Shown piece after piece: positions 38,848-42,225 of a stretch of DNA of 55,854 nucleotides. The notes below the pieces were generated by a model. It was not told where the DNA came from. It searched no databases and saw only the letters and a program-made list of their open reading frames with translations. Each line of letters starts with the position of its first letter. Position 1 is the stretch's first letter. The stretch covers positions 1-55,854 of the forward strand of contig JAFMCI010000010.1 in assembly GCA_017857855.1 (NCBI GenBank), read 5' to 3'. A program made the translations under genes and the position numbers. The DNA is from Bacteroidia bacterium (lineage in GTDB: Bacteria > Bacteroidota > Bacteroidia > NS11-12g > UBA9320).

Positions 38848-39882
38848 ATGCCAAACGCAGTTTCACCCAAAGTAGCGATTGTTATACTAAACTATAATAC
38901 CAGAGAGCTCTTAGAAAAGTTTTTGCCAAGTGTTTTGGCTACTGAGTATGCGCACAACGAGGTGTGGGTGGTTGATAATGCATCCACAGATGATTCTGTA
39001 GCTTATTGTAAAGCGAATTTTAGCCAGGTTCAGTTATTGGTAACTGAGAAAAATTTAGGATATGCGGGGGGATATAATTGGGCCCTAAGTCAAATTAAAG
39101 CCGATTATTATGTGCTTCTCAACAGTGATGTGGAGGTTTCTTCTAACTGGATAAATCCGCTGGTGGAGATGGCTGTTTCTGATCCGACTATTGGTGCAAT
39201 CCAACCCAAAATTTTAGATTACAAAAATAAAACCAAATTTGAATATGCCGGAGCTAGTGGTGGTTTTTTAGATAAATTTGGCTATCCGTTTTGCAGAGGC
39301 CGAATATTTGACACCTTAGAAGACGACAATTCGCAATACGAAATACCGCGCAAGGTTTTTTGGGCTACTGGAGCTTGCATGTTCGTGAGTTCAGAAGCAT
39401 TTCATCGTGTAGGACGACTAGATGCTGATTTTTTTGCACACATGGAAGAAATAGATCTTTGTTGGCGTTTGCAGCGGGCAGGTTACTCTATATGGGTAGA
39501 GCCGAGTTCTGTAGTATACCATGTTGGTGGCGGAACGTTGGCCGAAGGCTCTGATCGAAAGTACTTTCTGAATTTTAGGAATAACTTGTTTTTGCTGGCT
39601 AAAAATCATGCTTCACCCTTTTGGTTTATGATTATTATTTGGCGAATGATACTAGATGGGGTTTCGGCCTATAAGTTTTTACTTGAGGGCAAGGTCTCTT
39701 TATTTTTTACTATACTCAAAGCTCATTTTGCTTTTTGGGGCCAGTTTCATACAGTATTGGGTAAAAGACGATGGGTGAAAACGCTTGGTAAAGCATCAGT
39801 TTCTTTGTATAGCAAATCTATTGTATGGCAGTACTTTATAAAAGGCAAGAAGAAGTTTAGCGATTTAGAAAGGATTGTATAG
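38848..39882 (+). CDS. Glycosyltransferase family 2 (rhamnosyltransferase-like)
   Basis: The 344-residue protein has the GT2 core: VAIVILNYNTRELLEKFLPS (9-28), VVDNASTDDS, KNLGYAGGYNWAL, and LLNSDVE with the DxE metal site; the later HMEEIDLCWRLQRAGY is the catalytic base region. One C-terminal hydrophobic segment (about 250-270) may sit on the membrane. The pattern matches rhamnosyl- and related sugar transferases that decorate O-antigen or cell-surface glycans. Its end overlaps the convergent aroQ gene by 26 bases. Confidence 0.88.
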   Translation: MPNAVSPKVAIVILNYNTRELLEKFLPSVLATEYAHNEVWVVDNASTDDSVAYCKANFSQVQLLVTEKNLGYAGGYNWALSQIKADYYVLLNSDVEVSSNWINPLVEMAVSDPTIGAIQPKILDYKNKTKFEYAGASGGFLDKFGYPFCRGRIFDTLEDDNSQYEIPRKVFWATGACMFVSSEAFHRVGRLDADFFAHMEEIDLCWRLQRAGYSIWVEPSSVVYHVGGGTLAEGSDRKYFLNFRNNLFLLAKNHASPFWFMIIIWRMILDGVSAYKFLLEGKVSLFFTILKAHFAFWGQFHTVLGKRRWVKTLGKASVSLYSKSIVWQYFIKGKKKFSDLERIV

Positions 39883-40279
39883 CCAAGGAATATCCTTTCA
39901 ACCCTAGTCCAAAGATTCCCCCTTCGACATATTGAGCCAGAAGTTCGGTATGTCGCTCGCTTTCTCTGTTGTAAATATTTGAAATATGGACAGCGATAAC
40001 TGGAGTATGTATACCTGCAATAGTATCTGCTAATGCCACAGAAGTATGTGAATACCCACCTGCGTTTAGTACAATCCCATTGTATCCTTCATCATCTGCC
40101 AGATGGAGTCTGTTGATCAGTTCTCCTTCCACATTATTCTGAAAATAATCTATGTGAGCTGTTGAAAATTGGTTTCTAACTTGCACTAAGTACTCTTCGA
40201 ATGTTTGATGCCCGTAAATACTGGGTTCTCGCTTTCCCAGTAGGTTTAAATTAGGTCCATTTATAATCAGTATTTTCAC
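39857..40279 (-). CDS. aroQ: 3-dehydroquinate dehydratase, type II
   Basis: The 140-residue enzyme turns 3-dehydroquinate into 3-dehydroshikimate in the shikimate pathway. Visible type II signatures are INGPNLNLLGKREPSIYG (5-22, with the catalytic Y21), the EGELINRLH loop, NAGGYSHTSVALADTI and VHISN-I-Y-N-R-E. Length is normal. The start is a GTG at 40279. It is divergent from the PurF-like gene, and the two share a 16-bp symmetrical promoter region at 40303-40318. Confidence 0.94.
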   Translation of the reverse strand: MKILIINGPNLNLLGKREPSIYGHQTFEEYLVQVRNQFSTAHIDYFQNNVEGELINRLHLADDEGYNGIVLNAGGYSHTSVALADTIAGIHTPVIAVHISNIYNRESERHTELLAQYVEGGIFGLGLKGYSLAIQSFLNR

Positions 40280-40302
40280 GTGTTGTGGCTCTTATGACAC
40301 TT

Positions 40303-40318
40303 CAAAGTTATACATTTG
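40303..40318. promoter_or_regulatory. Symmetrical bidirectional promoter (aroQ / purF-like)
   Basis: CAAAGTTA and TACATTTG abut with no bases between. The left half read on the minus strand is TAACTTTG and the right half is TACATTTG, both exact TAnnTTTG boxes pointing apart. They serve aroQ (GTG 23 bases away) and the PurF-like gene (ATG 17 bases away). Confidence 0.6.
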
Positions 40319-40335
40319 TGGCTTAAACGCAGTAT

Positions 40336-42225
40336 ATGAGTGATGCTATAAAACACGAATGTGGAGTTGCCCTAGTAAGGCTCAGAAAACCGTTAGAATA
40401 CTACCGTGAGAAGTACGGAACAGAGCTTATTGGGATTGAAAAGTTGCAAATGTTAATGAACAAGCAACTTAATCGTGGACAAGATGGCTCTGGACTTGCA
40501 GTGATAAAATTAAATCCTGAATTTGGACACCGATATATTGCTCGCGAAAGGGCAAAAGGAAGTAATGCTGTAAGCACTCTTTTTGAACGTGTTAATCAAA
40601 AATTCAGTGAGTTAGATAAGGAAAAGGCCAAGGATACAGACTGGCTCAAGAAAAATTATCCCTATGCCGGAGAATTATTACTTGGGCATTTGCGCTATGC
40701 TACGCATGGTAAAGATAGCATCGAAAATATTCATCCATTCTTACGTCAAAATAACTGGATGAGCCGTAACTTGGTTCTGGCAGGTAATTATAATATGACC
40801 AATGTGAATGAGATGTATCAGCAACTTATTCAATTGGGCCAGCACCCAAAAGAAATAAGCGATAATGTGACCATGCTTGAAAAAATAGGTCATTTCTTGG
40901 ATGAGGAGAACGCTAGACTTTATCGTGAGTGCAAAGAAAAAGGCATGGATAATTTTGCCATTGCTGACTTTATTAAGAAAAACTTAAACCTTCAAAACGT
41001 ATTAAAAAGTGCATTTAAAAATGTAGATGGAGGATATAATATGGTAGGTTTGATAGGTGATGGTAATGCATTTGTAATGCGTGACCCGAATGGAATCAGA
41101 CCTAATTACTATTGGTCTAATGACGAGTTTCTTGTGGTTGCAAGTGAACGTCCTGCAATACAAACAGCGTTTGATTTGCAAATGGACGAGCTCAAAGAAG
41201 TTACTCCAGGATCTGCTCTAATTATTGATCGTGACGGAAACTTTGAAGAGAAAGAAATACTACCGCAACTGGAGAGAAAATCATGCAGTTTCGAACGTAT
41301 CTACTTTTCTCGTGGTAGCGATGGGAAAATACACCAAGAACGTAAAATGCTCGGTCGTAAAATGGCGAGAGAAATTCTTACACGCTTGGATTACGACATA
41401 CGAAGTACAGTATTCTCCTATATCCCGAATACGGCGGGAACTTCTTACTATGGCTTGGTAGATGGTATTTATAAATACCTAGACAAATGGAAACGTGAGG
41501 CAATTATCAAGCTAGGAGAAAACCCTAAACCTGCAGAGATAGACAAGTTACTTTCGGTAAAAATAAGAAGAGAAAAACTGCTGGTAAAGGATGCTAAAAT
41601 TAGAACTTTTATAGCGCAAGACGCAGGAAGAGATAATCTTGTAGGTAACGGGTATGATGTAACTTACGGCGTTGTTAAATCTACGGATACATTAGTTGTG
41701 GTAGATGATAGTATAGTAAGAGGCACTACGCTTAAAAAGAGTATTCTTCGTATTTTGGACAGGCTTGAGCCAAAGAAAATAATTGTTGTTTCTTCAGCTC
41801 CTATTATAAAATACCCAGATTGTTATGGTATAGATATGAGTCGTATGAATGAGTTCATATCTTTTCAAGCGGTAAAAAGCTTATTGGAAAAAAATGGTGA
41901 ATTGTCATTTATGAATACCGTGTACGAAGCGTGTAAACAAGAATTGGAAAAACCAGTTGCTGAGATGCAAAACAAAGTAAAGATGTTGTACGACAGATTT
42001 ACAGATAAAGAAATAGAAACTGAAATAGCGTTACTTGTAACTCCAGAAAATATGAAAGCTAAGGTAGAAATAGCGTTTCAAAGTATTGCGGGATTACATG
42101 CTTCTTGCCCTAATCACAAAGGAGACTGGTATTTCTCTGGTAACTATCCTACGCCAGGAGGTAATCAAGTGGTGAATAGGAGTTATGTCTACTATATGGA
42201 AGGAAGTAAGGATCGAGCGTATTAA
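40336..42225 (+). CDS. PurF-like amidophosphoribosyltransferase paralogue (629 aa)
   Basis: The protein has an N-terminal glutamine amidotransferase domain (C9 after an eight-residue propeptide; GHLRY at 117-121) and a C-terminal phosphoribosyltransferase domain with an intact PRPP loop VVVDDSIVRGTT (454-465). It is about 130-160 residues longer than ordinary PurF, with a C-terminal extension (about 525-629). Where PurF has the N-G oxyanion pair, this protein reads N151-Y152-N153; S175-D176 is followed by N-V, not the usual T-E. It is a Bacteroidota paralogue whose reaction is uncertain. PurF activity is possible but not proven by the motifs. Confidence 0.82.
   Translation: MSDAIKHECGVALVRLRKPLEYYREKYGTELIGIEKLQMLMNKQLNRGQDGSGLAVIKLNPEFGHRYIARERAKGSNAVSTLFERVNQKFSELDKEKAKDTDWLKKNYPYAGELLLGHLRYATHGKDSIENIHPFLRQNNWMSRNLVLAGNYNMTNVNEMYQQLIQLGQHPKEISDNVTMLEKIGHFLDEENARLYRECKEKGMDNFAIADFIKKNLNLQNVLKSAFKNVDGGYNMVGLIGDGNAFVMRDPNGIRPNYYWSNDEFLVVASERPAIQTAFDLQMDELKEVTPGSALIIDRDGNFEEKEILPQLERKSCSFERIYFSRGSDGKIHQERKMLGRKMAREILTRLDYDIRSTVFSYIPNTAGTSYYGLVDGIYKYLDKWKREAIIKLGENPKPAEIDKLLSVKIRREKLLVKDAKIRTFIAQDAGRDNLVGNGYDVTYGVVKSTDTLVVVDDSIVRGTTLKKSILRILDRLEPKKIIVVSSAPIIKYPDCYGIDMSRMNEFISFQAVKSLLEKNGELSFMNTVYEACKQELEKPVAEMQNKVKMLYDRFTDKEIETEIALLVTPENMKAKVEIAFQSIAGLHASCPNHKGDWYFSGNYPTPGGNQVVNRSYVYYMEGSKDRAY

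Follow-up and report, generated by a model that had tools for sequence, protein, structure and literature searches.

A probable compact bidirectional housekeeping promoter made of two back-to-back TAnnTTTG boxes between aroQ and a purF-like gene in a Bacteroidia bacterium

Introduction

How can two divergent genes, one of the shikimate pathway and one resembling purF, be transcribed from promoter boxes that touch each other? This question is raised by positions 40303-40318 of the window, i.e., the whole stretch of 55,854 nucleotides of a Bacteroidia bacterium that was analyzed here. The initial annotation had proposed that this 16-mer forms a symmetrical bidirectional promoter for aroQ and the purF-like gene, that only one polymerase could open the DNA at a time, and that expression of the two genes may thus be mutually exclusive or shared out from one melting site.

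The TAnnTTTG promoter box has been described for Bacteroides and Flavobacterium (PMC7366714; PMC9723704). Bidirectional promoters are a recognized class in E. coli and Salmonella: divergent transcription starts located 7-25 bp apart are counted there as one bidirectional promoter, most often with a spacing of 18 bp (PMC10268837; PMC12825309). We analyzed the sequence of the locus, its flanking genes, and its conservation in the genus and in the family.

Results

The genes flanking the 16-mer

The gene on the minus strand (39857-40279, GTG start) encodes a type II 3-dehydroquinate dehydratase, AroQ, as indicated by a match to PF01220 (E 8e-48) and by a score over the cut-off of NF003807. Its start codon alternates between GTG, TTG, and ATG among close congeners (window position 40279; loci L002-L017). 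The gene on the plus strand (40336-42225) encodes a 629-aa divergent homologue of PurF (amidophosphoribosyltransferase-like), which scored 130.8 bits against TIGR01134 (purF), far under the 350-bit cut-off, but also matched PurF structures from the PDB. The protein keeps a PRPP-binding-like stretch, VVVDDSIVRGTT, read by eye. Elsewhere in this 98%-complete genome, purF gave a single further match, a weak one to a 591-aa frame, and the genome thus apparently encodes no PurF other than the 629-aa protein. Since no other convincing purF was found, though purD is there and scores above its cut-off, the purF-like gene probably encodes the functional PurF. The two gene names given in the initial annotation therefore hold.

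Two exact boxes abut in a 56-bp intergenic gap

The 56-bp gap, which extends from the aroQ GTG (40279, minus strand) to the purF-like ATG (40336, plus strand), holds the sequence CAAAGTTATACATTTG at 40303-40318. It consists of one exact TAnnTTTG per strand, both pointing outward with 0 bp between them, as had been claimed. The minus-strand box, read from 40310 to 40303, is TAACTTTG and the plus-strand box, read from 40311 to 40318, is TACATTTG, the two meeting TA to TA at the junction. The description of the 16-mer as symmetrical was accurate for the 12 defined bases only: the 'nn' letters, GT on the left and CA on the right, do not pair with each other, and the sequence is a near-palindrome.

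A lone TAnnTTTG is uninformative, because its count in the whole window (79) was at chance level when compared with the 73.4 expected from shuffles. An abutting outward pair, CAAANNTATANNTTTG, was found once in the window, against 0.03 expected, and three of 100 whole-window shuffles contained one. For a gap of such length, the expectation calculated from intergenic base composition was about 2e-5.

According to the geometry described in F. psychrophilum, with the box at -12 to -5 (PMC9723704), transcription of aroQ is predicted to start at 40298 on the minus strand, with a leader of ~19 nt, and that of the purF-like gene at 40323 on the plus strand, with a leader of ~13 nt. The two predicted divergent starts are 25 bp apart.

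TAnnTTTG is a working promoter box in the genus

The distribution of TAnnTTTG upstream of start codons was determined in the congeneric genome G008, on stretches totaling 1.2 Mb in which 920 open frames were called, 582 of them with an upstream gap of at least 50 bases. On the sense strand, 63 boxes were found at -11 to -20, 44 at -21 to -30, and 28 at -31 to -40, while the antisense counts in the same bins were 7, 7, and 10, with about 5 expected per bin. This sense-strand enrichment shows that TAnnTTTG is a working primary-sigma box in the genus. At the locus under study, the first T of the box lies at -25 from the purF start and at -31 from the aroQ start, both within this genus-wide range, so that a TAnnTTTG at the -7 position with a suitable distance to the start codon is present in both directions.

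A -33 element was also sought in both directions at 40303-40318, and no TTG was found at offsets -22/-23 upstream of either TA. In the genus as a whole, the -33 TTG is a weak signal, present at its best offsets in 6 and 7 of 89 promoters; the -33 motif was not found in F. johnsoniae and is not universal in the phylum (PMC7366714). It can thus be regarded as an optional feature.

Both boxes are conserved in the genus

The divergent aroQ/purF-like pair was found in 18 of 19 congeneric genomes and was missing only from an assembly that is 70% complete; both boxes abut in all 18 genomes that hold the locus. The 16-mer is letter-identical in 17 of them. The remaining genome, G004 (L203/L058), reads CAAAGATATACCTTTG, in which one 'n' position has changed in each box and both consensuses are intact. 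In an alignment of 14 sequences, 14 of the 16 columns of the 16-mer were invariant versus 5 of the 40 columns elsewhere in the gap, a clear contrast for which the Fisher P of 2e-7 is a guide only, as neither columns nor sequences are independent. The mean pairwise identity of the gap outside the 16-mer was 56%. Judging from this comparison, it is very likely that selection has maintained the two boxes together, as a single compact promoter that works in both directions.

The 'n' letters are also nearly invariant, beyond what the plain box consensus requires. This feature, together with the near-symmetry, would suit an operator, at which a dimeric regulator controls aroQ and purF jointly and with which the two boxes merely coincide. 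We consider this very unlikely: the 'nn' bases break the palindrome, the variant congener has changed at 'n' positions only and has kept both sigma consensuses, and other genera retain the plus half on its own, at purF.

The abutting arrangement in the family

The initial annotation had named loss of the symmetry in close relatives with an unchanged gene order as a refutation. Within the genus, where the symmetry is kept throughout, this comparison speaks for the element; in other genera of the family, the symmetry is absent. In the sister genus (L065/L210), so called from the highest PurF identity (75%), a 64-bp gap contains CCAAGTTATAACTTTG, whose minus half, TAACTTGG, is one base off the consensus. 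In three further genera (L066-L072 and L211-L216), the same gene pair is separated by gaps of 99-220 bp; the 'n' letters of the purF box, which lies at -25 or -26, have drifted, and no minus box abuts it. The purF box is immediately followed, at about the position of the predicted start, by a TGCTCAA motif that is conserved in several genera of the family (L066-L072 and L211-L216) and is altered in the species of the window (40319-40335). In another genus (L219-L221), the purF box is at -21 and aroQ does not adjoin. Overall, a plus-strand TAnnTTTG was present 21-26 bases before the purF start in family members in which this start was located.

Two species of one genus (L067 and L072) have a box for aroQ alone, GGTTCAAAGTTA, just before its start codon and ~135 bp from the purF box TACATTTG, i.e., the same pair of boxes, set apart. 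As this aroQ box is only 4 nt from the ATG, a leaderless aroQ mRNA is predicted in these two species.

The wider conservation of the plus box, which persists in other genera without an abutting minus box, and the mismatch in the sister-genus minus half could mean that promoter activity is confined to the purF box, the minus box being a chance or vestigial half and aroQ being transcribed from elsewhere. This explanation is unlikely in view of the genus itself: none of the six consensus positions of the minus box varies among the 18 genomes, while the bases between this box and aroQ do vary, and in most of the 18 congeners no second minus box is present less than 150 bases from the purF start. 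Moreover, the upstream neighbor of aroQ is purF, on the opposite strand, and operon read-through therefore cannot supply aroQ. The two-way promoter thus remains the preferred reading of the 16-mer.

On the sequence evidence, the abutting symmetry is young, being absent in the family relatives with a longer gap. Although only a few genera of the family could be compared, an aroQ-purF gap that was once longer and held separate promoters probably became shorter in the common ancestor of the genus and the sister genus, giving rise to the abutting arrangement. A more elaborate scenario, to which we give only a small chance, would be that a deletion in this ancestor joined the two promoters and that the exact register was then selected, since the shared melting site would set the ratio of the aroQ (shikimate) and purF (purine) transcripts.

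The back-to-back layout is uncommon

In 19 genomes, outward boxes 0-8 bp apart were found 157 times, against 171 for a scrambled pattern. Closely spaced outward boxes are thus not enriched genus-wide, and the genus makes no general use of back-to-back geometry. Among the 144 divergent gene pairs in the 1.2 Mb of G008, outward boxes were present on both sides in 13 and were near-abutting in only one, in which they lie 1 bp apart, CAAAGGTAGTACTTTTG, in an 81-bp gap (G008:C1:376478-376494). The layout is therefore uncommon. In parallel, near-copies of the 16-mer (≤2 mismatches) were searched for elsewhere in four congeneric genomes and stood at control level; an operator shared by a regulon was rejected on this basis.

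A second conserved back-to-back site, with 3 bp between the boxes (CAAACTTATACTATTTTTG), separates rnhB from a methyltransferase gene in G000 (G000:C27:56329-56347; L174:1405-1475); G007, G008, and G010 have it in the opposite orientation. Like the aroQ/purF site, it combines a very short divergent gap with a pair of TAnnTTTG boxes that point outward, and it is kept among congeners; it differs by the 3-bp spacing and by its rnhB box, which is 4 nt before the first ATG, so that a leaderless rnhB mRNA is predicted if this ATG is the start.

Discussion

These results suggest that 40303-40318 is a bidirectional housekeeping promoter, in which two complete -7 boxes for the primary sigma factor of Bacteroidota are placed back to back, and we put the probability of this reading at about 0.8. 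The lack of a -33 TTG in either direction and the near-invariance of the 'n' letters speak against it, as does the fact that closely spaced outward boxes are not enriched in the genus. The proposal of one compact bidirectional promoter for aroQ and the purF-like gene is thus very likely correct, as the boxes abut in 18 of 18 genomes with divergent flanks and have a fitting spacing to both start codons. In such a promoter, sigma-bound RNA polymerase would load in either orientation on nearly the same DNA, one orientation giving the aroQ mRNA and the other the purF mRNA, from starts ~25 bp apart and with short leaders. We infer here that both boxes fire, that transcription starts where predicted, and that one polymerase fits at a time. 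This last point, already made in the initial annotation, is supported as a steric argument, which has been stated for promoters of this kind (PMC12825309).

The same steric exclusion could be taken further, to an either/or switch in which the firing of one promoter silences the other and thereby links shikimate and purine flux. E. coli offers a partial precedent, since the divergent transcript is repressed when one side is strongly activated. However, competition or repression was seen there only under strong activation of one direction: at five E. coli bidirectional promoters tested, one direction at its basal level hardly changed when the other was weakened or lost. At 40303-40318, neither a -33 element nor a recognizable activator site was found, both genes are housekeeping genes, and related genera have the pair without a shared core. 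A switch is thus very unlikely, and mutually exclusive expression of the two genes, as first suggested, is not supported, exclusion being expected only for each single binding event. With a bidirectional housekeeping promoter, both genes would be constitutive, each binding event picking a direction, with no switch-like exclusion unless one direction were strongly activated. Steady expression of both genes is most likely, because both are housekeeping genes, because no activator site was recognized, and because of the basal precedent in E. coli.

The aroQ/purF core is a known kind of element and not a new switch. As in the prokaryotic bidirectional promoters of Warman et al. (2021, 2026; PMC12825309; PMC10268837), a near-symmetric core would serve the mRNAs of divergent genes through two loading orientations, core elements of both strands abut in symmetric register in CAAAGTTATACATTTG, and the predicted starts are at most 25 bp apart. 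The conservation of both boxes suggests, indirectly, that both directions are transcribed. The type of box is different, TAnnTTTG instead of the TATAAT of E. coli bidirectional promoters. The geometry also differs: the aroQ/purF core is made of separate abutting 8-mers and its predicted starts are 25 bp apart, while the E. coli promoters share -10 elements and mostly have a spacing of 18 bp (also 10 or 23). When compared to Bacteroidota primary-sigma promoters (TAnnTTTG at -7, TTTG at -33), the locus has the exact -7 consensus at the usual distance from the start codon in both directions, but lacks the -33 motif on either side.

A literature search for bidirectional promoters in Bacteroidetes returned mostly eukaryotic papers, and the published descriptions of bidirectional promoters that were found rest on TATAAT-type cores. 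The conserved back-to-back -7 boxes of Bacteroidota suggest that TAnnTTTG, too, can form the building blocks of this architecture. In addition, the family series gives this arrangement a traceable origin, from a long gap with separate promoters, through the near-miss of the sister genus, to exact abutment in the genus. Overturning nothing by itself, the locus may serve in practice as a small, testable model of transcription shared by two biosynthetic genes.
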